A stretch of DNA of 64,000 nt from Pseudonocardia oceani. Its GTDB lineage: Bacteria > Actinomycetota > Actinomycetes > Mycobacteriales > Pseudonocardiaceae. The notes beneath the pieces are model-generated. The model saw nothing but the letters and a program-made list of their open reading frames with translations, did no database searches and had not been told where the DNA came from. Every line of letters begins with the position of its first letter. The first letter of the stretch is position 1. Location: positions 1,364,001 to 1,428,000 of the forward strand of contig NZ_JADQDF010000001.1 in NCBI RefSeq assembly GCF_019263585.2, written 5' to 3'. This document shows, in pieces, positions 49,536-63,445 of the stretch. The position numbers and the translations under genes were made by a program.

Positions 49536-51575
49536 CTAAGAGGGGAGGGCCTTCAGCCGGAACGCCGTGACGGGCTCGCGACGGCCCTTGACCGCCAGCT
49601 CCCCCAGCGCCTCGACGTCGACGTCCGCGGGCAGCAGCGCCCGCGTGGCCGCGCCGATCACGACCTGCCCCGGCTCCGCGACCGACTCCAGCCGCGCGGC
49701 GACGTTCACGGCGTCGCCCATCGCGTTGAAGTTGCGCAGCGCGGTGCTGCCGATGTTGCCGACGAGCGCGGGCCCGGTGTTGACGCCGACGCGGAACGTG
49801 GGGCCGTCGTCGTCGGCGATCGCGGCGATGCCCTCCTGCAGGGCGAGCGCGGCGCGGACCGCCCGCACGGCGTGGTCGGGCTGGCGGGCGGGCGCGCCGA
49901 ACAGCGCCATCATCGCATCGCCGACGAACTGCACCACCGTGCCACCCTCGGCCAGCACGGCCGCCGTCGCCACCTCGAAGTAGCGGTTGAGCAGCACGAC
50001 GATCTCCTCCGGGCCCGACCGCTCGGAGAACGTCGTGAAGCCGCGCAGGTCGGCGAACACCGCCGTGACGTCGACGACAGCGCCGCCGAGGGCGGCCTGC
50101 GCGGGGTCGGCCAGCAGCGCCGTGGCGACGTCGGGCGACATGTAGGCGCGGAACAGCCCGTCGAGCTGGTGGTAGAGCCGCGCGTTCTCCATGCCCATCG
50201 ACAGCTGACTGGCCAGGGAGGCGAGCAGGGAGCGGTCGCGGTCGCCGAACCCGCCGGGGCGCCGGACGAGCAGGACGCCGGCGGGGAGGTCCTTGACGGT
50301 CAGCGGGCAGGCGAGCACGTCGTCGCCGGTCTCGACGGGGTCGAGCCCCTCGGGCAGCGCGACGGGCGCGGTCCACGCCGGGTCGGTGCTCAGGGCACCG
50401 GGCCAGCGCAGGTCGCCGTCCTCGAGCAGGCCGATGCGCACGGCGTGGCCGTCGAAGCCGGCGGCGACGCGGGTGACGGCGCGGCGCAGCAGGTCGTCCT
50501 CGGCGAGCCGGACGCGCGACTCGTGCCCGATCGCCACGAGCACGCCCAGGCGCCCGATCTGCTCGCGCTCCCCCCGCAGCGCCGACGCGGCCCGCCCGAG
50601 CACGGCGGTCTGCCCCTCGGTGAGCCCGAACCGCGACGCCATCCCCGCGGTGATCAGCCCCATCTCGTCGGCGGAGATCTCCCCCGCCTCCTGCCGGCGC
50701 ACCGCCGACACCAGCGCTTCCAGCGCGGCCCCGTACTCCGCGCGTACGGCCTGCACCGTCTCCTCGGTGCGCACGCCGTCGAACAGGCCGGCGGTGGCAC
50801 CCTCGGCCTGGTAGCCCGCGTACGCGCTGTAGCCGATGTAGCCGAACGCCAGCGTCATCAACACGTGCCACAGCCACCACGTCAGGTGCCAGCTCGGGCC
50901 CAGGACCACCGCGACCATGGCCTCGGCCAGCAGCACGTTGGCGGTGAGGATCGACAGCAGCATCACCGAGCGGCGGCGACGGTAGAGCTGGTAGTAGCGG
51001 ACGGTGACGATACCGTAGAGCACCACCGAAATCCCCGCGACGACGACGAGCGGGCCGGAGAGCCGCTCCGCGAGCGCCGGGTCGGCCAGCGGCGGCAGCC
51101 CGGCGAGCGAGACCACGCCCCACAGCGCGGCGATCGCGAGCAGCCCGCGGCGCAGCCACGGGGCCAGGCGCAGGACCGTCGCCGACGGCAGGTCGACGAC
51201 CGACGCCGCGGTGCACAGCGCGGCCAGCGCCAGCCCGACGGGCGTGGCCAGCGCGAACCCGCCGTTGCGGCTGCCGAGCAGCACACCGGGCGTGGCCAGC
51301 GCGTGCAGCCCGAGGAACAGCGCGGCGGCCAGGAACCCGAGCCCGACCAGCATCAGCCGGGCGTCGTCGTGGCGGCGGGCGGCGCGCGCGACCAGCACCG
51401 ACAGGCCGACGTTGAGCGCCGCGGCGAGCGCGATCAGCCAGAAGTGCGTCGGGTGGTGCTCCAGGCGCACGTCGGCCGCGGGCACGGCGAGCAGCAGCCA
51501 CAGCCCGGCCAGCGGCAGCGCGAGGTGGAACGCCCACACCGCGACGCGCGCGGGGACTCCGCCGGTGTCAGCCAC
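49536..51575 (-). CDS. Membrane adenylate/guanylate cyclase with GAF domain
   Basis: Protein of 679 residues. Six or seven N-terminal helices (about 12-250) form a membrane sensor. A GAF-like region (about 340-470) follows, then a class III cyclase domain (about 495-660) with VFADLRGFTTFSE (metal Asp), GDAMMALFG and AMGDAVNVAARLE. It makes cAMP or cGMP. The gene starts at GTG 51575, eight bases inside the end of the Crp-type gene, so cyclase and receptor are co-translated. Confidence 0.88.
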   Translation of the reverse strand: MADTGGVPARVAVWAFHLALPLAGLWLLLAVPAADVRLEHHPTHFWLIALAAALNVGLSVLVARAARRHDDARLMLVGLGFLAAALFLGLHALATPGVLLGSRNGGFALATPVGLALAALCTAASVVDLPSATVLRLAPWLRRGLLAIAALWGVVSLAGLPPLADPALAERLSGPLVVVAGISVVLYGIVTVRYYQLYRRRRSVMLLSILTANVLLAEAMVAVVLGPSWHLTWWLWHVLMTLAFGYIGYSAYAGYQAEGATAGLFDGVRTEETVQAVRAEYGAALEALVSAVRRQEAGEISADEMGLITAGMASRFGLTEGQTAVLGRAASALRGEREQIGRLGVLVAIGHESRVRLAEDDLLRRAVTRVAAGFDGHAVRIGLLEDGDLRWPGALSTDPAWTAPVALPEGLDPVETGDDVLACPLTVKDLPAGVLLVRRPGGFGDRDRSLLASLASQLSMGMENARLYHQLDGLFRAYMSPDVATALLADPAQAALGGAVVDVTAVFADLRGFTTFSERSGPEEIVVLLNRYFEVATAAVLAEGGTVVQFVGDAMMALFGAPARQPDHAVRAVRAALALQEGIAAIADDDGPTFRVGVNTGPALVGNIGSTALRNFNAMGDAVNVAARLESVAEPGQVVIGAATRALLPADVDVEALGELAVKGRREPVTAFRLKALPS

Positions 51576-52236
51576 GGGCCCTCCTGCGCAGTCCGTCGAG
51601 GTCGAGCACGGTCATCGTCCGGCGGCCGGTGGTGAGCAGGCCGCGGTCGCGCAGCACGCGCAGCGCCTTGGCCACCGCCTCCCGCGACGCGCCGACCCAC
51701 CCGGCGAGCTCGTCCTGGGAGAGCGGCACCGGGATGCGGACGCCGTCGGGCACGGGCTCGCCGAACCGGTCGGCGAGCTCGACGAGGCGCCCGGCGACGC
51801 GCGCGGCGATGTCGAAGGCGCCGAACTCGACGCGCTTGCGGTCGGCGTCGCGCAGGCGGGAGGTGACCAGCCGCAGCAGCGCCATCGCCGCCCCCGGCTC
51901 GCCGGAGAGGAAGGCGACGAAGTCCGGCACCGGCACGACGAGGGCCACCACCGGCTCCAGCGCGGCCACCGACGCGCCGCGCTCGGTGCCGTCGATCGCC
52001 GACAGCTCGCCCAGCAGGGCGCCGGGCCCGCGCACCGCGAGCAGGACCTCCTCGCCCTGCTCGGTGATCGAGAAGACCTTCACGCGGCCGGTGACGACGA
52101 CGACCACGGTGCTCGACCGGTCGCCCTCCAGGAACAGCGTGGCGCCCGCGGGCCAGCGCCGGTGCCGGCCCCGCGCGGACAGCGCCGCGCGTCCGGCGTC
52201 GTCCAGACCGGCCAGGAACTCCTCGGGCTCGAGCAT
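51568..52236 (-). CDS. Crp/Fnr family transcriptional regulator
   Basis: Protein of 222 residues. The cyclic-nucleotide domain (about 10-120) has ATLFLEGDRSSTVVVV and GALLGELSAIDGTERGAS, near the phosphate-binding cassette, and the C-terminal winged helix has LSQDELAGWVGASREAVAKAL. It should bind cAMP or cGMP made by the adjacent cyclase and control genes in response. ATG 52236 has GGAGGT upstream. Confidence 0.9.
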   Translation of the reverse strand: MLEPEEFLAGLDDAGRAALSARGRHRRWPAGATLFLEGDRSSTVVVVVTGRVKVFSITEQGEEVLLAVRGPGALLGELSAIDGTERGASVAALEPVVALVVPVPDFVAFLSGEPGAAMALLRLVTSRLRDADRKRVEFGAFDIAARVAGRLVELADRFGEPVPDGVRIPVPLSQDELAGWVGASREAVAKALRVLRDRGLLTTGRRTMTVLDLDGLRRRARG

Positions 52237-52294: not shown

Positions 52295-54061
52295 TCACGC
52301 CGCTCCGGTCGGGTCGGCGGCGGGGGCGAGGCCGGCGGTGTCGACGGCGGGCGCGTCGGGCGGGTCCGGCACGACCGCACCCTCGACGGCCGCCGCCGTG
52401 GTGGTGCCCTCCGCCGCACCGGTGTCCGGCGGGGCGGTCGTGGGCTCCGTCGTGGGCGGCTCCGTCGTGGGCTCGGTCGTGGGCGGGGGCGTGGTCGCGG
52501 CGGGCGGGGCCGCGGTCCGGGGCGCGGGGGGCGGGGCCGTCCGGGGCTCGGGGGCGGGTTCCGGGGCGGGCTCGGGCTCGACCGGCTCCGGCGCGGCCGT
52601 CGGGGCGGTCGGGGCGGGCGCCTCGACCCGGCTGAGCGTCGCGGGCTCCGGCGTCGCGGCGGAGGCCGGGGGCCCTGCGCGGTTCGCGAACAGGATCGCC
52701 CCGCCCAGCACGCCCGCGGCCAGCACGCTCGCCGCGGTCGCGGCGAGGACCCGCCGCGGGATCGCGCGGCGGGTCGCGGCCGCCTCCACCTCGGCGAGCG
52801 GCCGCGCGGGGCGCGGCGGGCGCAGGGCCCGGGTGACCGGCGCCTCCCGCGCCGCCGCGTCCCGCGCCGCCGCGTCCCGCACCGACCCCTCCCGCGACGC
52901 CGCCGCCCGCAGCGCCGCCGTCCGCGCGGCCGAGCCGTCGTCGGTGGACACCGCCCCGGCGCCGTGCGCGGCCAGCGCCTCCGCCGCGGGCGCCGACGCC
53001 CCCCGCGCGACGAGCGCCGCACCGGCGGCGATGACGCCCTTCGGGTCGACGTCGGCCGACGCCGGACGCCCGATGCCCGCGGAGACGAGCTCGGTCACCA
53101 GCGGCATCCGCGACGACCCGCCGACCAGCAGCAGCGTCCCGACGTCGGCGGGCGCGACCCCCGCGGACGCCAGCGCCCGCGCCAGCGCGTCGACGGTCTC
53201 GGCGATCGCCGGCCGCACCAGGTCCTCGAACTCCGCGCGTCCCAGCCGCACCCGCGTGTGCAGACCGGGCAGCATCACCGGTACCTGCACGACGGTGTCG
53301 ACCGACAGCGCCTCCTTCGCCGCGGTGCACTCCCGCCGCAGCCGCGCGACGGCCTCCAGCACCGCGGGGTCGGTGCCGTCGAGTTCCGCCCACGCGGGCC
53401 CGATGGCGTCGCGGACGTGGGCGAACACGGCCTCGTCGAAGTCGACGCCGCCCAGCCGCTCGATGCCCTCCGGCGTCCCGAGCAGCGCGAACCCGCCGCG
53501 CGGGTCCTTGCGCACCACGGCGGCGTCGAACGTGCCGCCGCCCAGGTCGTAGACGGCGACGACCGAGCCGGTCTCGACGCGCTCGGCGCTCGCGTACCCG
53601 ACGGCGGCGGCCTGCGGCTCGCTCAGCAGCACCAGCGGTCCGACGCCCTGCGCGGTCAGCGCGGCCCGCAGCGCGGCGGTCTTGTGCGGGCCCCAGCCGG
53701 CCGGGTGCGTCACCGCGATCCGCGACGGCGGCCCGCCCTCGCGCTGCGACACCTGCCGGACCAGCGCGGCGACGAACCGCGCCGCCAGCACCTCGGCCGG
53801 CACGGGTTCGCGGCCGACGAGGACCGGCGTCGGGTCGCCGATGCGGCGCTTGAACTCGCGCACGACGCGGTCGGGGTCCGACAGCGCACGGCGCTCGGCG
53901 GCCTCGCCGAGCAGGAACGAGCCGTCGGCTCCTGCGAACACCGCGGAGGCGACGGCGTGCCCGTGCTCGCCGAGCGGCACGGGCTCGGCCGTGCGGGCGC
54001 CGTCGCGGCAGACGGCGGCCGCCGACCACGTCGTGCCCAGGTCCACACCCAGCTGGTACAT
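52295..54061 (-). CDS. Hsp70-like protein with membrane anchor and extracytoplasmic tail
   Basis: Protein of 588 residues. The Hsp70 ATPase domain (1-365) has VDLGTTWSAAAVC, DLGGGTFDAAVV and LLVGGSSRMPLV. The substrate-binding domain of DnaK is missing. A single membrane helix (about 437-458) is followed by a Pro/Glu/Thr-rich tail of about 125 residues. ATG 54061 has GGAGGAG upstream. It diverges from the acidic-protein and dynamin genes and may act as their membrane-linked ATPase. Confidence 0.88.
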   Translation of the reverse strand: MYQLGVDLGTTWSAAAVCRDGARTAEPVPLGEHGHAVASAVFAGADGSFLLGEAAERRALSDPDRVVREFKRRIGDPTPVLVGREPVPAEVLAARFVAALVRQVSQREGGPPSRIAVTHPAGWGPHKTAALRAALTAQGVGPLVLLSEPQAAAVGYASAERVETGSVVAVYDLGGGTFDAAVVRKDPRGGFALLGTPEGIERLGGVDFDEAVFAHVRDAIGPAWAELDGTDPAVLEAVARLRRECTAAKEALSVDTVVQVPVMLPGLHTRVRLGRAEFEDLVRPAIAETVDALARALASAGVAPADVGTLLLVGGSSRMPLVTELVSAGIGRPASADVDPKGVIAAGAALVARGASAPAAEALAAHGAGAVSTDDGSAARTAALRAAASREGSVRDAAARDAAAREAPVTRALRPPRPARPLAEVEAAATRRAIPRRVLAATAASVLAAGVLGGAILFANRAGPPASAATPEPATLSRVEAPAPTAPTAAPEPVEPEPAPEPAPEPRTAPPPAPRTAAPPAATTPPPTTEPTTEPPTTEPTTAPPDTGAAEGTTTAAAVEGAVVPDPPDAPAVDTAGLAPAADPTGAA

Positions 54062-54156
54062 CGCTTCTCCTCCGTGACCGCTCGCCGGAGCCCGTCGGGG
54101 TACGGGGCGCCGTGACGAGCAGGACGCCAGCATCACCGCGCGGGATGCGTCCGGGC

Positions 54157-54215
54157 CGGAAGTACCGGGTGGATCCCCTACCGCCCGCCGGTACCGGCCC
54201 GGGATCCCGGTACGG
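54157..54215. promoter_or_regulatory. GTACCGG motif cluster in divergent promoter region
   Basis: GTACCGG occurs at 54163 and 54191 and inverted (CCGGTAC) at 54207-54213; the last two make a perfect 7-base inverted repeat. The 279-base region separates the Hsp70-like gene from the acidic-protein gene. The motifs could be binding sites for the LuxR regulator downstream; no experimental support. Confidence 0.45.
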
Positions 54216-54340
54216 CGGCCGGCACGGACCGGGGGTCGCCCGGATCCGCGGGAAGGCCTCCGGAGCCCATGGTTCTCGGCAACCGGCAGGCAGCGCCGGT
54301 GGGCGCGACCCGGCGCCGACCCGACACGCAGGAGAACACC

Positions 54341-54886
54341 ATGACCGGCTCGTTCAACGTCGAGAGCTTCATCGCCAACCTCAACGAGGACCTCGACCTC
54401 GACCAGAACCTCCTCCAGGACTCCGACCAGCAGAACGAGAGCGCGCAGGTCTCCGACCAGGAGACGACGCAGGTCGGCGACCAGGACCAGGACGTCACCA
54501 CGGCCACGAACACCGAGGGCGGCGACGGCGGCGACGGCGGCCTGGCCGTCGGCGGCAGCGCCGACGGCGGCAGCGGTCTGGGCATCGGCGGCAACTCGGG
54601 CGGCATCGCCCAGGGTGGCAACAACTCCGACGGCGTCAACATCAACTTCGGGGACACCGGCGACGCCAACGGCACCGGTGTCGGCGGCGACGGCGGGTTC
54701 GGCGGGAACGCCGACGCCTCCGGCGGGAGCGGCGGCGACGCCGACTCCGACGTCGACGTCGACGCCGACGCCACCCAGGTCTTCGACTCCGAGCAGGACA
54801 ACGACCAGGACTCGGACCAGGACAACGACTCCGACCAGGACGCCGAAGCCGACGCCGACCTGGACCTGACCACCTTCATCAGCTGA
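54341..54886 (+). CDS. Acidic Gly/Asp/Gln-rich protein
   Basis: Protein of 181 residues starting MTGSFNVESFIANLNEDLDL, acidic throughout, with DQENxD-like runs and a Gly-rich centre (GGSGLGIGGNSGG). The C-terminal part has SEQDNDQDSDQDNDSD. No signal peptide or domain known. It is the first gene of the cluster with the IniB-like protein and dynamin GTPases. Such acidic proteins may bind cations or act as scaffolds. ATG 54341 has AGGAG upstream. Confidence 0.75.
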   Translation: MTGSFNVESFIANLNEDLDLDQNLLQDSDQQNESAQVSDQETTQVGDQDQDVTTATNTEGGDGGDGGLAVGGSADGGSGLGIGGNSGGIAQGGNNSDGVNINFGDTGDANGTGVGGDGGFGGNADASGGSGGDADSDVDVDADATQVFDSEQDNDQDSDQDNDSDQDAEADADLDLTTFIS

Positions 54887-54956
54887 CGCACTCCCCACCG
54901 GCCCCGCCCGCGCGCGTCGCGGGCGGGGCCGGTGGCCGACCCGGAGGTGGACCGCC

Positions 54957-55769
54957 GTGCTCGCGATGTCCCAAGTGATCGAATTCCTCCTCGACCTGAT
55001 GCGCGACGAGGGCAAGATGCAGCAGTTCGAGCTGAACCCGCACCGCACGATCGCCGACGCCGGCCTCCAGGGCCTGACCGGCCAGGACGTGCGCGACGCG
55101 CAGCTCCAGATGTCGGACTCCGGCGTGCTCCGCCCCGATGAGGACGGAGGCGGAGACGGCGGTGGTGGCGGTGGCGGTGGTGGTGGTGGTGGTGGCGGTG
55201 GTGGCGGTGGCAGGCCGAGCAGCGGCGGCGACGACCCCGTCCAGGCCATCCAGCACACGACGGCCACGTTCCACGTCACCGAGGTCACCGAGACCACCAT
55301 CATCACCATCGACGACCGCGACGTCACCTTCAACGACTCGTTCAACTCCGACGACGACGTGACGATCATCGACGACTCGTTCAACGACAGCTCCTCGGTC
55401 GTCAACGACGTCACGGCGATCCAGGACAACGACACGATCATCAACGACAACGACACGATCGACATCGAGGACAACGACGTCGAGGTCGGTGGCACCACCG
55501 TCGAGACCGGCGCCCCCGTGCCGGCGAACCCGCCGGTGGGCATCGGGATCGAGGACATCGTCGGCCCGGAGGAGGGAGCCGGAGAGGGGCCCGACGCGGG
55601 TCCCGAGGTCACCACGCAGGTCGAGCCGGAGCAGGGCGAGCCGGAGCCGGTGGTGGAGGAACCCGTTCTGGCGGAGGTCGAGCCCGAGCCGGAACCGGAG
55701 CCCGAGCCGGAACCCGAGGCCGACGCCGAGCCAGAGCTCGAGGCCGACGTCGACGCCGCGATCGTCTAG
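54957..55769 (+). CDS. IniB N-terminal domain protein
   Basis: Protein of 270 residues. The first 50 residues, with VIEFLLDLMRDEGKMQQFELN and ADAGLQGLTGQDVRDAQLQ, match the N-terminal domain of IniB proteins. A Gly run (about 64-85) and a long acidic, Asn/Asp/Thr-rich region follow, ending in an EPEP repeat. IniB is a cell-envelope-stress protein co-expressed with IniA and IniC in mycobacteria. The GTG at 54957 has GGAGGTGG ahead; ATG 54966 is an alternative. Confidence 0.85.
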   Translation: MLAMSQVIEFLLDLMRDEGKMQQFELNPHRTIADAGLQGLTGQDVRDAQLQMSDSGVLRPDEDGGGDGGGGGGGGGGGGGGGGGGRPSSGGDDPVQAIQHTTATFHVTEVTETTIITIDDRDVTFNDSFNSDDDVTIIDDSFNDSSSVVNDVTAIQDNDTIINDNDTIDIEDNDVEVGGTTVETGAPVPANPPVGIGIEDIVGPEEGAGEGPDAGPEVTTQVEPEQGEPEPVVEEPVLAEVEPEPEPEPEPEPEADAEPELEADVDAAIV

Positions 55770-55777
55770 GTGACGCC

Positions 55778-57646
55778 ATGAGCGGGACAGCAGGGACCGA
55801 CCCGGCAGGGACCGATCCGACGGAGGCCGTCGACCGCGCCCTCGCCGCGATCGCCCGCTACGAGCGCCCCGACCTCGACGAGCGGCTGCGCGTCTCGCGC
55901 ACCCGCGTGCTCGACGGGCGGGTGCGGGTGCTGGTCGTCGGGGAGTTCAAGCAGGGCAAGTCGATGCTGGTCAACGGGCTGGTGGGGGCCCCGGTCTGCC
56001 CGACGTTCGACGACATCGCGACCGCGGTGCCGACGGTCGTGCGGCACGCGGAGTCCGTCACCGTGACGCTGGTGCGCCGCGGCGGGCCGGGCACCGAGCC
56101 CGTGCGCGTCGACGTCCCGGCCGCCGACCTCGCCGCGCACGTCTGCGAGCAGGGCAACCCGGGCAACCGCGAGGGCTGGAGCCACGTCGAGGTCGGCGTG
56201 CCGCGGCCGGTGCTCGCGGGCGGGCTGGAGCTCGTCGACACCCCCGGCGTCGGCGGGCTCCAGTCCGTCCACGGCGCGGCGACGATGGCGGCCCTGCCGT
56301 CGGCCGACGCCGTGCTGCTCGTCTCCGACGCCTCGCAGGAGTACACCGCGCCCGAGATCGAGTTCCTGCGCCACGCCGCGTCGGTGTGCCCGACGGTCGC
56401 GTGCGTGCTCACCAAGACCGACCTGTACCCGGAGTCGGCGCGCATCGCGGAGCTGAACCGCGGGCACCTCGCGGCGGCGGGGATCACCGCCGAGCTGTTC
56501 GAGGTGTCGTCGACGCTGCGCTGGCACGCCGTCGTCGCCGGCGACACCGAGGCCAACGCGGAGTCGGGGTTCCCCGCGCTCGTCGGCTACGTCCGCAAGC
56601 GGGTGCTCGGCCAGGCCGACCGCATCGCGCGCCGCGGCGTCGTCCACGACGTCCTCGCCGTGACCGACCAGATCGCCGGGAGCCTGCGCGCCGAGCTGAC
56701 CGCGCAGGACCCGGAGGCCGCGGCCGCGCTGATGGCCGGGCTGACGGCGGCGCAGGAGCGGGCGACCGCGCTCAAGGAGCGCTCGGCGCGCTGGCAGCAG
56801 ACGCTCAACGACGGCGTCGCCGACCTCAATGCCGACATCGACTACGACCTGCGCGACCGGATGCGCGAGATCAGCCGCCTCGCCGAGGACGAGCTCGCCG
56901 CCGTCGGCGACCCGACGAAGGTGTGGGACCAGTTCGCGGGCTGGGTGCAGCAGGAGGTCGCGAACGCGGCGGCGGCGAACTTCGTCTGGGCCACCCAGCG
57001 CGCCCGCCACCTCGCCCAGCAGGTCTCCGAGCACTTCTCCTCCGACCGCGACCAGCTGCTCCCCGCGCTGCGCAACGACCCGTCCGACGCGCTGCGCTCG
57101 GTGCGGCAGATGACGATGCCCGACGCGGCGGCCTTCGGCGTCGGCGCCAAGGCGCTGACCGGCCTGAAGGGCGGCTACATGGGCATGCTGATGTTCGGGA
57201 TGATGGGCAGCATCCTGTTCGGATCGCTCGTCAACCCGATCGGGATCGGCGCCGGCATCGTGATGGCCGGCAAGTCCGTCGGCGACGAGCGCAAGCGGAT
57301 CGTCACCAAGCGTCAGAACGAGGCGAAGACGGCGGCCAAGCGCTACGTCGACGACGTGACGTTCCAGGTCGGCAAGGACTCCCGCGACCGCCTCCGCGCG
57401 GTGCAGCGCGACCTGCGCGACCACTTCACCGAGCAGGCCGAGCAGCTCAAGCGCTCGCTGGCGGAGTCGCAGCAGGCGGCCGAGCGGGCGGTGAAGCAGT
57501 CCCACGCCGAGCGGGCCGCGCGGCACGCCGAGATCACCGCACAGCTCGCCGAGCTCGAGGCGGTGCGCACGGACGCGCGGGCGCTGCTGCCCCGGCCCGC
57601 AGCCCGGGCGGCGCAGGCCCGGCCGGAGCAGGCGGTGGCGTCGTGA
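55778..57646 (+). CDS. Dynamin-like GTPase, IniA type
   Basis: Protein of 622 residues. The GTPase domain has G1 GEFKQGKS at 55-62, G3 DTPGVGG and G4 TKTD. Long helical stalk regions follow, and a hydrophobic hairpin (about 464-500, GMLMFGMMGSILFG) that inserts into membranes, as in bacterial dynamins. IniA remodels the plasma membrane in mycobacteria. It follows the IniB-like gene by eight bases and its stop overlaps the next GTPase gene by four bases. Confidence 0.92.
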   Translation: MSGTAGTDPAGTDPTEAVDRALAAIARYERPDLDERLRVSRTRVLDGRVRVLVVGEFKQGKSMLVNGLVGAPVCPTFDDIATAVPTVVRHAESVTVTLVRRGGPGTEPVRVDVPAADLAAHVCEQGNPGNREGWSHVEVGVPRPVLAGGLELVDTPGVGGLQSVHGAATMAALPSADAVLLVSDASQEYTAPEIEFLRHAASVCPTVACVLTKTDLYPESARIAELNRGHLAAAGITAELFEVSSTLRWHAVVAGDTEANAESGFPALVGYVRKRVLGQADRIARRGVVHDVLAVTDQIAGSLRAELTAQDPEAAAALMAGLTAAQERATALKERSARWQQTLNDGVADLNADIDYDLRDRMREISRLAEDELAAVGDPTKVWDQFAGWVQQEVANAAAANFVWATQRARHLAQQVSEHFSSDRDQLLPALRNDPSDALRSVRQMTMPDAAAFGVGAKALTGLKGGYMGMLMFGMMGSILFGSLVNPIGIGAGIVMAGKSVGDERKRIVTKRQNEAKTAAKRYVDDVTFQVGKDSRDRLRAVQRDLRDHFTEQAEQLKRSLAESQQAAERAVKQSHAERAARHAEITAQLAELEAVRTDARALLPRPAARAAQARPEQAVAS

Positions 57647-59118
57647 GCCTGCTGGCCGCCACCCGCCGCGTGCTGCTGCTGGCGATCGAGACCCACCGCG
57701 ACGACCCGGCCGTCGTCGCGCGGATGCAGGCCCAGCTCGCCCGGCTCGACGAGCCGCTGCGCGTCGCGATCGCCGGGAAGGTCAAGGCCGGCAAGTCGAC
57801 GCTGCTCAACGCGCTGGTCGGCGAGCACGTCGCCCCGACCGACGCCGGGGAGTGCACGCGGGTCGTCACCTGGTACCGCGACGGCCGCCTCCCGCGGATC
57901 GTGCTGCACCCGAAGGCCGGCGGCGCCACGCCGCTGACGGTGCGGCGCGCGGACGGCGCGCTCGTCATCGACATGGAGGGCGCGGCGGCCGACGACGTCG
58001 AGCGGCTCGTCGTCGACTGGCCCTCGGAGAGCCTGCGGTCCTCGACGCTGATCGACACCCCCGGCATCGCGTCGACCTCGGCGGAGACCTCGCGGCGGAC
58101 CGTCGCCTTCCTCGACCCCGACGACGACACCCCGACCGAGGCCGACGCCGTCGTCTACCTCATGCGCCACCTGCACGCCGCCGACGCGGAGTTCCTGGAG
58201 TCCTTCCGCGACCGCGGGGTCGCGCGGGCGACCGCGGTCAACACCGTCGCGGTGATCTCCCGGGCCGACGAGATCGGCGGGGGCCGCGTCGACGCGATGT
58301 TCTCCGCGCGCGGCATCGCGGCGCGCTACCGCTCCGACCCGACGGTGCGCGGGCTGTGCCAGGACGTCGTCGCCGTCGCGGGGCTGCTCGCGCAGACCGG
58401 GCGGACGCTGCGCCACGCCGAGCACACCGCGCTCGCCGGGCTCGCCGCGCTGCCGCGCGAGGAGCTGGAGTCGGCGCTGCTGTCGGTCGCCCGCTTCCGC
58501 CGCGGCGGCACGGCCCCGGGCGACGGGCCCGACGAGCGCGAACGGCTGGTGCGCCGGTTCGGACTGTTCGGCATCCGGCTCTCGGCGAGCCTGATCCGCC
58601 AGGGTGCGACGACGCCCGACGCGCTGGCGGCCGAGCTCGTCGCGCGCAGCGGGCTCACCGAGCTGCAGAACGTGCTGCACACGCAGTTCACCGGTCGCCG
58701 CGACCTGCTCAAGGCGCGGTCGGCGCTGCTGGCCGTCGAGGCGCTGCTCTCGGGCACCCGCCGGGAGGGCCCGCTGGCCCGCGAGGTCGAGCGGGTGCTG
58801 GCCGGGGCGCACGAGTTCGCCGAGCTGCGCCTGCTGGGGGCGCTGCGCTCGGGCGCGGTCACGCTTCCGGAGGCGGCGGCGCGGGAGGCCGAGCGGCTGC
58901 TCGGCGACGCCGGCGCGGCGCCCGCCGCGCGCCTGGGGCTGCCGGTCGGCGCCCCGCCCCAGGAGGTGCGGCACGCCGCGTTCGGCGCGCTGGAGCGCTG
59001 GCGGCGCCACGCCGCCAACCCGATGCTGACCCGTGCCGCGACCGACGCCTGCCAGACCGTGATCCGCACCTGCGAAGGGATCGTGGCAGGGCTGCCCCGG
59101 CCGGTCCGCTCCCGCTGA
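57643..59118 (+). CDS. Dynamin-like GTPase, IniC type
   Basis: Protein of 491 residues starting at GTG 57643. The G1 motif GKVKAGKS is at 45-52 and DTPGIAS is G3; the G4 position is read as SRAD. It is shorter than IniA and lacks an obvious membrane hairpin. Its GTGA overlap with the first GTPase indicates a stoichiometric pair, like IniA-IniC. Confidence 0.9.
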   Translation: MSLLAATRRVLLLAIETHRDDPAVVARMQAQLARLDEPLRVAIAGKVKAGKSTLLNALVGEHVAPTDAGECTRVVTWYRDGRLPRIVLHPKAGGATPLTVRRADGALVIDMEGAAADDVERLVVDWPSESLRSSTLIDTPGIASTSAETSRRTVAFLDPDDDTPTEADAVVYLMRHLHAADAEFLESFRDRGVARATAVNTVAVISRADEIGGGRVDAMFSARGIAARYRSDPTVRGLCQDVVAVAGLLAQTGRTLRHAEHTALAGLAALPREELESALLSVARFRRGGTAPGDGPDERERLVRRFGLFGIRLSASLIRQGATTPDALAAELVARSGLTELQNVLHTQFTGRRDLLKARSALLAVEALLSGTRREGPLAREVERVLAGAHEFAELRLLGALRSGAVTLPEAAAREAERLLGDAGAAPAARLGLPVGAPPQEVRHAAFGALERWRRHAANPMLTRAATDACQTVIRTCEGIVAGLPRPVRSR

Positions 59119-59279
59119 GGAGTATCAGGCGTCCCGGGGCGTGCTCCTCCGTGTCGGGTCCGACGGACACCCCGGAGTGTGTACGGGCACACGGAGCCCC
59201 ACACGGATCCGGCACAGCATGGGCGGACACCACAGCAGGGGGTAGTAGCCATGCCGCACACCGAGAAGCGGAGCAGGCC
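59119..59279 (+). promoter_or_regulatory. Palindrome-rich leader upstream of LuxR gene
   Basis: This region has ACACCCCGGAGTGT and GTGTACGGGCACAC, two adjacent dyads, and a short reading frame of ten codons (59251-59283, MPHTEKRSRP) whose stop overlaps the LuxR GTG. A ribosome site AGGGGG precedes the short frame. The dyads may be operators and the short frame a leader peptide giving coupled translation. Confidence 0.4.
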
Positions 59280-60740
59280 GTGACCGCGCCGGCCGTCACC
59301 GAGGCCGGCGACGCCGTCCGCGCCGAGCAGGCGTGGGCGCGCGGGGACGCGCTGGCCGCCATCGACGCCGCCGACCGCGCGCTCGCCGGGGGCGCGGACC
59401 CGGGAGCCCGGGCCGCCGGGGTCGCGGCCGCGGCCGGGGCCGCCGACGGCGCCCTCCTCGACGCGGCCGGCCGCTGGCGCGCCATCTCCGCCGTCCTGGA
59501 CGCCGAGAGCGCCCACGCCGCCGCGGTCTGGGCCACCGCCCGCGCCGCGCTGCTGGGCGCACTGGCCGGGGACGTCACCGGAGGCGCCGGGGACCTCGCC
59601 GACGCCCGCGACCGGCTGCCCGACCCCGCCCCGCGCGGCCTCACCGTCCTCGTCGACGGGGCCGGCGCCGCCCTCGACGCCCTGCGCGGGGCCGTCGAGC
59701 CCGCCGCGCGGCGCCTCGCGGGCCTCGCCGCCGCGACCGTCCCGCCCGACCCGCTCGCGCCCGAGCAGTGGGGCGAGCTGGCGGCCACCGTCGCCGCCGC
59801 GGGCGGGTACGAGCGCGCCGCCCGCGCGATGCTCGAGCCCGTCCCCGGCACGCTGCCGACCACCCGCCAGCGCCTGCTCGCGGCCTGGCTCGACCTGCGC
59901 GCCGGGCGCCTGTCCGACGCCCGCGAGGCCCTGGCCGACGTCGGCGGCACCGCCGTCCTGCGCCGCAACGCCGTGCTCGCCGCGGCCGTCGGCGTCGGCC
60001 TGGCCCGCCGCGGCAGCGACCCGGCCGCGCTCGCGGCCACCTGGGACCGCGTCGCACCGGTGGTCGCCGGCGCCGACGTCGAGCCGTTCCTCGTCGACGC
60101 CTGGGGCGAGCTGTCCGTCGCCGCCGCGCTCGTCGGCGACCCCTCGGCCGACCTCCCCGGCGCCGTCGACGCCGCCGTCGACGCCGCCGGGTCGCCCTGG
60201 TGGGCCGAGGCGTCGCGGCTGTGGTGGGCGCTGGAGCGGGCCGTCGTCGCCGACGACGCCGCGGGCGCCCGGGCCGCGGCCGGACCGCTGACGGAGCTGG
60301 CCGTCGACCACCCGGTGCTGCGCGCCCGCGCGCAGGCCGCCGCCGTGTGGGCGGCGGTGCTCGCCGGGGACGTCGACGCGGCGGCCGTCGACGCCGTCAC
60401 CACCGCCCTGGACGGGGTGGGGCGGCCCTGGGAGGCCGCGGCGCTGTGCCGGGCCGCGACCGCCCGGGCCGGCGCCCCGGCCGTCGCCCGCGCCCTGATG
60501 GAGACCGGCCGCCGCCTGCGCCCGGCCCGCGGCCCCCGCCGGGCCGCCGGCACCGACGAGCTGTCGGACCGGGAGCGGGAGGTCGGCGCGCTGGTCGTCG
60601 ACGGGCTCACGCACAAGGAGATCGGGGCGCGGCTCTACATCTCGCCCAAGACGGTGGAGCAGCACGTGGCCCGGCTGCGGCAGAAGCTCGTCGCCGCGAC
60701 GCGCGCCGACCTCGTCGCCGCCCTCCGGGCCCGGCTCTGA
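59280..60740 (+). CDS. LuxR-type transcriptional regulator
   Basis: Protein of 486 residues. The C-terminal GerE-type helix-turn-helix (about 420-486) reads LSDREREVGALVVDGLTHKE and ARLYISPKTVEQHVARLRQKL. The N-terminal 400 residues are Ala-rich helical repeats without an ATPase site. Start at GTG 59280 overlaps the stop of a ten-codon leader. As last gene beside the dynamin cluster it is the probable controller. Confidence 0.88.
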   Translation: MTAPAVTEAGDAVRAEQAWARGDALAAIDAADRALAGGADPGARAAGVAAAAGAADGALLDAAGRWRAISAVLDAESAHAAAVWATARAALLGALAGDVTGGAGDLADARDRLPDPAPRGLTVLVDGAGAALDALRGAVEPAARRLAGLAAATVPPDPLAPEQWGELAATVAAAGGYERAARAMLEPVPGTLPTTRQRLLAAWLDLRAGRLSDAREALADVGGTAVLRRNAVLAAAVGVGLARRGSDPAALAATWDRVAPVVAGADVEPFLVDAWGELSVAAALVGDPSADLPGAVDAAVDAAGSPWWAEASRLWWALERAVVADDAAGARAAAGPLTELAVDHPVLRARAQAAAVWAAVLAGDVDAAAVDAVTTALDGVGRPWEAAALCRAATARAGAPAVARALMETGRRLRPARGPRRAAGTDELSDREREVGALVVDGLTHKEIGARLYISPKTVEQHVARLRQKLVAATRADLVAALRARL

Positions 60741-60886: not shown

Positions 60887-63445
60887 ATGACCGCGCTGCC
60901 CCTGCTCGGGGCGGAGGAGGAGTTCCACGTCGTCGACCTGGAGTCCCGACGCTCCGCTCCCGAGGTCGACGCCCTGCTCGCCCGCCTCGACGGCGCCGAG
61001 TTCGCCCCCGAGCTGCAGCGCTCGCTCGTGGAGACCAACTCGCCGGTCTGCGCGACCCTCGACGACCTGCGCCACCACCTGCGCCGGCTGCGCGCCACCC
61101 TGGAGTCGGCCGCCGAGCCGCTCGGGCTGGGTGTGGTGGCGGCGGGCACCGTGCCGCTGACCCACGAGGGCGACGCCGTCTCCGCGGGCGCGCGCTACGA
61201 GCGGATGCAGCACGAGTACCAGCTGCTGGTCAGCGAGCAGCACATCTGCGGGGCGCAGGTGCACGTCGACGTGCCCGACCGCGACGTCGCCGTGCAGGTC
61301 GTCCGCCGCGTCGCCCCCTACCTGCCGACGCTCCTGGCGATCTCGGCCAGCTCCCCGTACTGGCGCGGGCGCGACTCGGGGTACGCGAGCTTCCGGTCGA
61401 TGGTGTGGTCGCGCTGGCCCACCGCGGGCCCGCCCGGGAACGTCGAGACCGCCGCCGACTACGACGCGATGGTCGCCGAGCTCATCGCGTCCGGGACGAT
61501 CAGCGACCCCGGGATGGTCTACTTCGACATCCGGCCCAGCTCCCACCTGCCGACGGTCGAGCTGCGCGTGTGCGACGCGTGCCCGCAGGTCGACGACGTC
61601 GTGCTCATCGCCGGGCTGTTCCGCGCGCTGGTCGGCCGCGCCCGCGCCGACCTCGACGCCGGGCTGCCGCTGCCGGTCTCGCGCCACGAGCTGCTGCGCG
61701 CGGCGAGCTGGCGCGCGGCGCGGTCGGGTCTGGAGGGCGACCTCGTCGACCTGGTCGGGCCGAGCCTGGTCTCCCCGCCCCTGGTCGTCGGCCAGCTCGT
61801 CGACCACCTGCGCCCGCAGCTCGAGGAGCTGGGCGACTGGGAGCAGGTGCTGGAGCTCTCGCAGGCCACGCTCGCCCGGGGCAGCGCGGCCGCCCGCCAG
61901 CGGCGCGCGTACGGGCGGCGCGGCGAGTTCACCGACGTCGTCGACGCCCTGATCGCCCACACCCAGGGCCGCACGCCGGTCTCCGAGCCCCCCGCGACCG
62001 TGCCCCGCAGCCCGGCGCTGCTCACCGCCTACCACCCGACGGCGTTCGACGAGGCCGTCAGCGAGGGCGGCACCGTCCTGCCGCACTACGGCTTCCTGTT
62101 CCGTGCGCTCGACCGCATGGGCCCGCGCGGGATGGTCGCCGCGGAGAGCGCGCTGCGCACCGAGCAGCGGGCCCGGGGCGTCACCTTCCGCGTCGGCGAC
62201 GGCGAGCCCGACCGGCTTTTCCCGCTGGACCTGGTGCCCCGGATCGTCACCGCCGAGGAGTGGTCCGGGCTCAGCGACGGGCTGGCGCAGCGGGTCCGCG
62301 CGCTGGAGGCGTTCGTCCGGGACGTCTACGGCGAGCGGCGGATCGTCGCCGACGGTGTCGTGCCGGAGGCGGTGGTCGCGAACGCTCCGGGCTGGAGCCG
62401 CCTGGGCAAGCTCTGCCCCGCCGACGCCGTGCGGATCGCGGTGGCCGGCATCGACCTGGTGCGCGACCGCGCCGACCACTGGCTCGTGCTGGAGGACAAC
62501 CTCCGCGTGCCGTCCGGCATCGGCTACTCGATCACGAGCCGGCGCCTGATCCGCAGCGTGATGCCCGACCTGGAGCCGCCCGCGGGCGTCGTCGGGCTGG
62601 AGCCGGTGCCCGGGCGCCTGCGCTCCGCGCTGCTCTCGGCCACCGAGCCCGACGAGCCCGGCGCCGACGAGGTCGCGCTGCTCTCGCAGGGGCCGGCCGA
62701 CTCCGCGTACTTCGAGCACCGCCTGCTCGCCGACCAGATGGGCGTGCCGCTGGTGACCCCGCGGGAGCTGCAGGTCACCGAGGAGGGCGTGTACCTCGTC
62801 GGCACCGGGGCGCGCCGCCGGCTCTCCGCGCTCTACCGCCGGATCGACGAGAGCGCCCTGATGGCCGCGCGCGGCGCCGACCAGCGGCCCGTCGGGCGGG
62901 CGATCGGCAACGCGGTCGCCCGTGGCACGGTCGCGCTGCTCAACGCGCTGGGCAACGGCGTCGCCGACGACAAGCTCGTCTACGCCTACGTCCCCGAGAT
63001 GATCGCCTACTACCTCGGCGAGCCGGTGCTGCTCGCCAACGTCCCCACCTACCCCTGCGTCGACGCCGACCGCCGCGCCGAGGTGCTCGACCGCCTCGAC
63101 CAGCTCGTCCTCAAGCCCGTCGACGGCTACGGCGGGCAGGGCATCGTCATCGGCCCGCACGCCGACCGCGCCGAGCTGGCCGAGGTGGCGGAGGCGATCC
63201 GGCAGGACCCCGGGGGCTGGGTGGCGCAGGACCTCGTCTCCCTCTCGACCCACCCCACCTTCGCCGGCGACAAGCTCGAGCCGCGGGCGGTCGACCTGCG
63301 GGCGTTCGTGCTGCAGTCGCGCCACGGGGACGGCGCGCAGGTGGAGGTGCTGCCCGCCGCGCTGAGCCGGGTCGCCCCGGCCGGCAGCATGATCGTCAAC
63401 TCCTCGCGCGGGGGCGGGGCGAAGGACACCTGGGTGCTGCGCTGA
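60887..63445 (+). CDS. Fusion of GCS2-type carboxylate-amine ligase and circularly permuted ATP-grasp
   Basis: Protein of 852 residues. The first 375 form a glutamate-cysteine ligase GCS2 (YbdK-type) domain: LLGAEEEFHVVDL, CGAQVHVDVPD and ELRVCDACPQVDD. Residues about 390-852 are a circularly permuted type 2 ATP-grasp (COG2308-like) with VLEDNLRVPSGIGY and KPVDGYGGQGIVIGP. The two ligase folds are usually separate genes. An AsnO-like gene follows, suggesting a role in a peptide osmolyte pathway. Ends at 63445. Confidence 0.9.
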   Translation: MTALPLLGAEEEFHVVDLESRRSAPEVDALLARLDGAEFAPELQRSLVETNSPVCATLDDLRHHLRRLRATLESAAEPLGLGVVAAGTVPLTHEGDAVSAGARYERMQHEYQLLVSEQHICGAQVHVDVPDRDVAVQVVRRVAPYLPTLLAISASSPYWRGRDSGYASFRSMVWSRWPTAGPPGNVETAADYDAMVAELIASGTISDPGMVYFDIRPSSHLPTVELRVCDACPQVDDVVLIAGLFRALVGRARADLDAGLPLPVSRHELLRAASWRAARSGLEGDLVDLVGPSLVSPPLVVGQLVDHLRPQLEELGDWEQVLELSQATLARGSAAARQRRAYGRRGEFTDVVDALIAHTQGRTPVSEPPATVPRSPALLTAYHPTAFDEAVSEGGTVLPHYGFLFRALDRMGPRGMVAAESALRTEQRARGVTFRVGDGEPDRLFPLDLVPRIVTAEEWSGLSDGLAQRVRALEAFVRDVYGERRIVADGVVPEAVVANAPGWSRLGKLCPADAVRIAVAGIDLVRDRADHWLVLEDNLRVPSGIGYSITSRRLIRSVMPDLEPPAGVVGLEPVPGRLRSALLSATEPDEPGADEVALLSQGPADSAYFEHRLLADQMGVPLVTPRELQVTEEGVYLVGTGARRRLSALYRRIDESALMAARGADQRPVGRAIGNAVARGTVALLNALGNGVADDKLVYAYVPEMIAYYLGEPVLLANVPTYPCVDADRRAEVLDRLDQLVLKPVDGYGGQGIVIGPHADRAELAEVAEAIRQDPGGWVAQDLVSLSTHPTFAGDKLEPRAVDLRAFVLQSRHGDGAQVEVLPAALSRVAPAGSMIVNSSRGGGAKDTWVLR

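Follow-up and report, generated by a model that had tools for sequence, protein, structure and literature searches.

A membrane-anchored Hsp70-like protein encoded beside the dynamin pair of an IniBAC-type locus in Pseudonocardia oceani and at related loci of Actinomycetes

Introduction

The synteny of the mycobacterial iniR/iniBAC locus, including iniB*, has been described in the accessible sections of Boot et al. 2017 (PMC5760070), and membrane fission by its dynamin-like product IniA has been reported in those of PMC6715688. In M. smegmatis, as one sentence of the former notes, iniR has a dnaK-like neighbour, whose product those sections describe no further; a union of Hsp70 and dynamin genes is not, therefore, peculiar to the locus described here. 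In actinobacteria, DO-GTPase systems have paired GTPases, a subset of which is accompanied by an HSP70 without its peptide-binding domain (Kaur et al. 2020, PMC7159879). The word 'dynamin' is not mentioned in the accessible part of that paper, and neither dnaK nor Hsp70 in the accessible main text of PMC13413693. Here we describe a locus from Pseudonocardia oceani, contained in a window of 64,000 nucleotides (contig NZ_JADQDF010000001.1, positions 1,364,001 to 1,428,000, forward strand) of a 6.82-Mb genome whose relatives are Pseudonocardia. Its IniBAC-type genes stand opposite a gene for a membrane-anchored Hsp70-like protein that lacks a substrate-binding domain, here called Hsp70m. We find that linkage of Hsp70m to dynamin genes is general, which is new as far as the literature searched here reaches.

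Results

Organisation of the locus

The module comprises the following features (window coordinates):

52295..54061, minus strand: Hsp70m, 588 residues, ATG start after GGAGG; Hsp70 nucleotide-binding domain (NBD, residues 1-350), linker, transmembrane (TM) helix (about 436-459) and a proline/threonine-rich tail, presumed extracytoplasmic
54062..54340: divergent intergenic region common to Hsp70m and the ini genes, with conserved blocks in five aligned Pseudonocardia loci
54341..54886, plus strand: acid1, an acidic protein of 181 residues rich in D, N, Q and G
54966..55769, plus strand: IniB-like protein, a helical IniB N-terminal domain (residues 1-51) followed by an acidic D/N-rich region modelled without structure
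55778..57646, plus strand: IniA, dynamin-like GTPase
57643..59118, plus strand: IniC, dynamin-like GTPase, GTG start
59280..60740, plus strand: LuxR-type regulator, alternative start at 59151

Hsp70m is transcribed divergently from the other five genes. Coordinates and family matches place every gene where a preliminary description of this DNA had put it, and the overlapping stop by which it had linked the two GTPases is a four-base overlap (GTGA) between the IniA stop and the IniC start. IniA is orthologous to the M. smegmatis protein, matching its structure (PDB 6j72) over residues 16-596, nearly full length, with a phmmer E-value of 2e-124. Both GTPases score above the Pfam cut-off for Dynamin_N (IniC, 47.5 bits against 27), and the IniB-like protein exceeds that of the NCBIfam model IniB_NTERM (NF038175; 46.6 bits against 40). 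Relatives of acid1, which by position lie between Hsp70m and IniB, occur in 20 other loci (BLAST, E 1e-20 or better, 47-88% identity). Of the features of iniBAC, the window thus has the IniA orthologue, the IniB N-terminal domain and a second dynamin directly after IniA. A full IniR regulator is missing: the LuxR-type protein aligns to positions 330-824 of the 827 in the IniR model NF038181, with 83 bits against a cut-off of 750, and by this alignment is an IniR without its N-terminal AAA+/STAND ATPase.

Linkage of Hsp70m to dynamin pairs

Among the IniA-anchored named loci (the best 80 of 272, mostly Pseudonocardiales, the nearest being that of P. hydrocarbonoxydans with 90% identity in IniA), 66 encode Hsp70m, always upstream of and divergent from the ini genes. 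Thirteen of the 14 without it have less than 2 kb of contig upstream of IniA. Where the flanks reach at least 5 kb upstream and at least 4 kb downstream, as they do at 46 loci, Hsp70m, IniC and IniR are each present in all 46 and IniB in 42. The preliminary description had joined an IniBAC-type core to a membrane Hsp70 without a substrate domain and had called for a survey of neighbourhoods, naming a lack of co-occurrence with iniA/iniC, together with a lack of co-expression, as the outcome that would sink the idea; instead, the two occur together at 46/46 well-flanked loci, and the linkage is conserved far beyond the window.

In a class-wide draw of 296 genomes, 40 gave an IniA match with an E-value of 1e-40 or lower, and 37 of the 42 matches outside the P. 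oceani genome were fetched. Hsp70m is present in 29 of these 37 loci, including all 25 that have IniB or IniR. Nine of 16 order-level genomes have an IniA-like match (E 1e-20 or better), and all nine carry an NBD-type Hsp70 within about 9 kb of it (L177, L192, L199-L204 and G034). With a second profile, built on a more divergent dynamin found at locus L019, Hsp70 was recovered in 8 of 12 fetched loci (L213-L217, L219, L220 and L222), four of the 12 being class-wide IniA matches previously left out. NBD-only Hsp70s are thus found beside dynamin pairs for which IniB was not detected and IniR is either not found or matched below 28 bits as a LuxR-type protein; such pairs are those of L187, L188, L192, L193, L199-L206, L213-L217, L219, L220 and L222. 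No IniB domain was detected in L187, L188, L192, L193, L199-L208 or L211-L222, where IniR appears only as LuxR-type matches of 33 bits or less.

Within the genus, all 25 genomes have an IniA match, and 37 of the 46 strong ones have Hsp70m less than 10 kb away; nine lack it, six or more of them because the contig ends near IniA. DnaK genes were removed from the Hsp70m counts by means of a DnaK control profile. The locus sets overlap (L072 is L164, and L047 and the G034 contig appear identical).

The P. oceani genome itself contains 11 Dynamin_N matches, of which the eight strongest form four pairs and the other three are short (24-29 bits). An NBD-type Hsp70 lies within a few kb of each pair: in the window, at L017, at L018 and at the divergent L019. 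L017 and L018 are 56-60% identical to the window in IniA and 62-65% in IniC; this genome has three ini-type modules. The IniB paralogue of L018 (38 bits) is just below the cut-off of 40, and the L017 regulator, though full length, scores below that of NF038181 (329 against 750 bits). By our own arithmetic (some seven such genes in 6.8 Mb, 12-kb neighbourhoods), one such pairing would arise by chance in about 1% of cases.

On these distributions it is scarcely credible that the genes stand together by accident, their order having merely been slow to reshuffle. The 80 named loci do come mostly from one order and share ancestry, but the linkage holds in several families of the class and recurs at four loci within a single genome, and class-wide the gene order varies (upstream or downstream, same or opposite strand), which argues for selection.

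Hsp70m, IniA and IniC have also been inherited together. Over the 67 loci that hold all three, distance correlations are 0.58 for Hsp70m-IniA, 0.72 for Hsp70m-IniC and 0.87 for IniA-IniC. In six genomes with two or three complete modules, the true Hsp70m pairing scores highest of 192 within-genome arrangements, the runner-up being almost tied with it (Hsp70m-IniA correlation 0.5773 against 0.5775).

Several further loci were noted. L019 (10716-14924), L205, L206, L199-L204 and L213-L217 represent a second, more divergent type of dynamin pair with an NBD-only Hsp70, from several families of the class, and at some of these loci the dynamins are separated or flanked by an additional gene, a small acidic one or another. 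In most genus genomes there are Hsp70m genes without a strong IniA nearby. At L020 (5202-7100) a stand-alone TM-bearing Hsp70m, with an NBD 57% identical to that of the window protein, lies beside what by eye are leuCD-like and HU-like genes. L207, L208 and L021 each encode an Hsp70-TM-beta-propeller protein beside sensor- or regulator-like genes (by eye), with dynamin-like neighbours in L207 and L208 and none in L021.

Architecture of Hsp70m

Hsp70m matches the Pfam HSP70 family (PF00012) with 167.8 bits against a cut-off of 20.6, while the DnaK and HscA models match it over the nucleotide-binding half only (to position 372 of 597); of the two domains of an Hsp70 chaperone, the window protein has the nucleotide-binding one and not the substrate-binding one. 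In an AF2 model the NBD (residues 1-350) is predicted with confidence, the hydrophobic stretch 436-459 forms one helix, and confidence in the tail is low. The model was made from a 27-sequence set, the window protein and 26 of 28 references (L040 and L078 left out). Foldseek aligns the model to DnaK structures at an E-value of 8.7e-30, over 360-395 columns in the top rows. The membrane-anchored Hsp70 without a substrate domain of the preliminary description is borne out by where the DnaK profiles stop and by the modelled helix.

The same architecture recurs among relatives. A TM-like stretch follows the NBD in 85 of 89 complete ini-linked Hsp70m proteins (two short fragments set aside), and in 81 of these it is accompanied by a tail with at least 65% P, T, S, A, G or E. 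No substrate-binding domain was found in 103 ini-linked Hsp70 open reading frames, in which the DnaK profile aligns no further than position 400 of 597; in the order-level and L019-type-linked Hsp70s it stops by position 382, leaving no recognisable substrate domain. Some dynamin-linked relatives carry a propeller as the tail: Vgb-lyase-like after the TM helix in L173, YVTN after the TM helix in L208, WD40 with a weak TM in L192, and PQQ/BamB-like in L193, where the sole TM-like stretch lies inside the propeller. In L199, L201 and L204 the TM is at the extreme C-terminus.

Repeated loss of the ATP site

The catalytic signature of the window Hsp70m is canonical (DTTKEDTDGR, the ten DnaK active-site positions read off the alignment) and includes the equivalents of K70, E171 and T199, as does that of most Pseudonocardia Hsp70m proteins. 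Of the 108 proteins in a tree that left out L019, L022 and proteins filling less than 60% of columns, 66 keep all three residues, 40 have lost at least two and two are partial, a gap being scored as a missing residue (L026, L034, L180). Lost-site groups comprise loci that kinship and gene content suggest to be Mycobacteriaceae-like, a Pseudonocardia subgroup (L069, L071, L093), a Lentzea subgroup (L041, L043-L045), the Cellulomonas loci L099 and L101, and others; some of these rows are metagenome assemblies. The tree requires at least five changes to the lost state, at least four of them forced by starred branches, with the warning that long branches meet in it; where this has joined lost-site rows falsely, the losses would be more, not fewer.

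The ratio of nonsynonymous to synonymous substitution in the NBD (dN/dS, Nei-Gojobori) is 0.05-0.31 in eight lost-site pairs, two of which span just 147 codons, and 0.15-0.27 in five intact pairs. The gene therefore remains under purifying selection after losing its catalytic residues in at least four to five lineages, a finding that is new here, and ATP hydrolysis or ATP-driven chaperoning cannot be the shared function of the family. Because the residues that burn ATP are so often lost, a docking or sensing role seems to be indicated for Hsp70m rather than one in protein folding.

Hsc70 disassembles clathrin coats, and Hsp70m might likewise be an ATP-driven factor that takes apart dynamin assemblies. 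The intact signature of the window protein, the three residues kept in 66/108 relatives and the conserved linkage to dynamins are all compatible with this role. It is nevertheless improbable given the repeated loss of the ATP site under purifying selection, the lack of a substrate-binding domain throughout the ini-linked set, and a Pfam scan of the six proteins of the window module that found no J-domain. The preliminary description had offered either recruitment or disassembly of dynamin by the Hsp70-like protein; the second of these loses ground on the same evidence, and recruitment is the reading preferred here.

One further idea was rejected, namely that the ATPases are complementary, with Hsp70m dead where the IniR ATPase is present and vice versa. 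The Walker-A pattern gave both absent in 9 and both present in 28 of 81 loci, and the loci that lack both ATPases include L027, L041 and L043-L045. In the Mycobacteriaceae-like loci L180-L184 we also noted a second lost-site Hsp70m on the far side of IniR.

The divergent intergenic region

The shared intergenic region of the window contains GATCCCCTA (= TAGGGGATC on the minus strand) at about 54172-54180, and a search of it for inverted repeats whose arms span at least 7 bp found none. The motif T[AC]GGGGATC is present in 31 of 87 regions upstream of Hsp70m and in 24 of 1,740 control windows, a density of 1.53 per kb against 0.028 per kb elsewhere in the same loci, and a looser core occurs in 67/103 regions as opposed to 290/2,060 controls. 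A profile trained outside the mycobacteria-like loci placed 7 of 20 mycobacteria-like regions above the 99th control percentile, and eight of the remaining 13 have a TTAGGGG core; a leave-one-locus-out test outside these loci, with near relatives remaining in the training set, recovered 29/91. Among the P. oceani loci, the motif is in the window and L018 and not in L017, L019, L020 or L021. This enrichment of a GGGGATC-type motif in the divergent region is new here; for co-expression of the divergent genes, a shared motif is indirect evidence only. According to the accessible sections of Boot et al. 2017 (PMC5760070), chromatin immunoprecipitation in M. tuberculosis locates IniR upstream of iniBAC. 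Those sections give no motif for it, and the motif described here is a putative IniR site.

Of the 80 loci with both genes, 35 have Hsp70m and IniR in tandem on the same strand, with Hsp70m first and a gap of less than 400 bp (18/56 and 17/24). MalK holds MalT, and Hsp70m might similarly be mainly an upstream signalling partner that holds the LuxR/STAND regulator IniR at the membrane until the envelope is damaged. Besides the tandem arrangement, the enriched motif and a MalT-domain-III-like part of IniR, described in the accessible text of PMC5760070, fit such a role. We consider it unlikely, however: the two genes are apart in the other 45/80 loci, NBD-only Hsp70s stand beside dynamin pairs with no or doubtful IniR nearby, and IniR operates in M. 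marinum and M. tuberculosis, for which no Hsp70m is reported (PMC5760070, same sections).

Neighbouring genes

Following Hsp70m on the same strand are a Crp/Fnr-like gene (51568-52236, minus strand) and an overlapping gene for a membrane nucleotide-cyclase-like protein (49536-51575, minus strand). By eye, this pair is kept in L024, is on the opposite strand in L030 and is represented by a Crp-like piece in L027. Downstream of the LuxR gene, 60887-63445 encodes a large protein that by eye looks like a fusion of glutamate-cysteine ligase with a circularly permuted ATP-grasp.

In bacteria, dynamins can have a defensive role, and the preliminary description had suggested a phage response. In PADLOC the LeoBC and LeoA profiles match IniA with 65 and 52 bits respectively, and IniC with 26 and 47 bits, a weak similarity, and there are weak LuxR helix-turn-helix matches; of the two genes just downstream of Hsp70m, the cyclase matches the Pycsar model PycC (70 bits) and the Crp-like gene PycTIR (43 bits); and HSP70s without a substrate domain belong to the DO-GTPase conflict systems (accessible part of Kaur et al. 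2020, PMC7159879). Against this, IniA is matched in every genus genome and three ini-type modules share this one, no phage record matches IniA, the matches in the plasmid set are two large records predicted to be non-mobilizable, the Pycsar matches may be generic cyclase and cyclic-nucleotide domains, and the ini homology points to wall stress. An anti-phage module is accordingly very improbable, and the suggestion is not upheld.

Discussion

With roughly even confidence, we interpret the locus as an envelope-stress module of the IniBAC type, whose dynamin pair Hsp70m would serve as a membrane-spanning scaffold or receptor. This explanation is favoured over a role in holding IniR because it is the dynamin pair that the loci share, including those with no detected IniB and IniR. 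The arginine-rich flank that precedes the TM helix suggests that the NBD is cytoplasmic; the tail would then reach into the wall and report, or anchor to, the state of the envelope. The Hsp70-fold head might dock IniA and IniC at damaged membrane, perhaps through the IniB N-terminal domain, and an IniR-type regulator would switch on both divergent transcripts, whereupon IniA and IniC would remodel or repair the membrane. Where the ATP site is intact, as in the window, nucleotide state may tune docking, hydrolysis not being essential to the common function.

In the predicted model, residues 1-51 are the only folded part of IniB, and so short a domain may suit an adaptor. A Foldseek search with it (window 54966-55118) gave a best E-value of 1.0, and the SonA borosin precursor or Os1348 accounted for 28 of its 32 matches; the domain's resemblance to Os1348 and to the helical SonA leader, a borosin leader of the ribosomally synthesised and post-translationally modified peptide class, is weak (VIA Z 3.8 or less) and serves as a lead only.

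More broadly, though we put this forward tentatively, the Hsp70 fold may have given rise across Actinomycetes to a class of receptors or scaffolds that span the membrane and are devoted to dynamin pairs. Its members would have a cytoplasmic Hsp70/actin-fold head, sometimes a dead ATPase, a TM helix and an exchangeable outer domain (a proline/threonine-rich stalk or a beta-propeller), with Hsp70m in the ini case placed under one operator with the dynamins.

Several observations weigh against the scaffold or receptor reading. Linkage is imperfect: L068 is a true miss among the 80 named loci, with 9 kb upstream of IniA; four of the 12 L019-type loci (L211, L212, L218, L221) lack Hsp70; and eight of the 37 class-wide dynamin loci lack Hsp70m. 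These eight also lack IniB and IniR in the fetched stretch (one, L171, is cut), so that linkage is tightest at ini-type loci. In the reverse direction, a strong IniA lies less than 10 kb away from just 37 of the 86 Hsp70m genes in the 25 genus genomes, although some of the distant ones sit near weaker dynamin matches (L207, L208), and stand-alone types exist at L020 and L021, neither having a match to the window IniA or IniC within the fetched 12 kb and the latter ending in a beta-propeller. Since the reverse linkage is incomplete, Hsp70m is a wider family with one branch tied to ini loci. Nor is anchoring universal outside that branch, since hydropathy detected no TM in the dynamin-linked Hsp70s of L019, L200, L205, L206, L213-L217, L219 and L220. 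The strict motif, a candidate IniR site, is absent from 56 of 87 Hsp70m upstream regions. Lastly, in the accessible sections of PMC5760070 the dnaK-like gene is reported only for M. smegmatis among the mycobacteria compared, and the IniR-iniBAC response of M. marinum and M. tuberculosis works; as these two have no reported dnaK-like gene, Hsp70m may be dispensable.

Hsp70m is a conserved membrane-spanning candidate for positioning or controlling the drug-induced mycobacterial dynamins IniA and IniC. An Hsp70 that has lost its ATP site and is nevertheless kept by selection would make a clear case of a pseudo-chaperone scaffold.

Comparison with known systems

The window shares the IniB N-terminal domain, IniA, IniC and a LuxR/MalT-like IniR with the mycobacterial iniR-iniB*-iniBAC locus, and differs from it in a regulator without the ATPase domain, an extra acidic protein and an Hsp70m whose ATP site is kept. 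With DO-GTPase systems of actinobacteria it has in common paired GTPases and, for a subset of those systems, an HSP70 without a substrate domain. There, as set out in the accessible part of PMC7159879, the GTPases are TRAFAC DO-GTPases partnered by GAP1, tubulin or GrpE/DnaJ and accompanied by effector domains, whereas the window has dynamins with IniB and IniR; a Pfam scan of the module, run with no dedicated DO-GTPase model, found Dynamin_N and no GAP1, tubulin, GrpE or DnaJ partner. Hsp70m has the nucleotide-binding domain fold of the DnaK/HscA chaperones but, in place of their substrate domain, a TM helix and proline/threonine-rich tail, and in its relatives the active site is often lost. 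Two adjacent dynamin genes are also found in Cj-DLP1/2 and LeoABC, for which we know of no Hsp70 partner. In the full-text literature searched (excluding preprints and most subscription journals) we recognised no paper describing a gene partnership of dynamin and Hsp70 and found no experimental data on Hsp70m. The locus is a variant of a known module, joined to a general Hsp70m-dynamin partnership that is undescribed as far as this search reaches.

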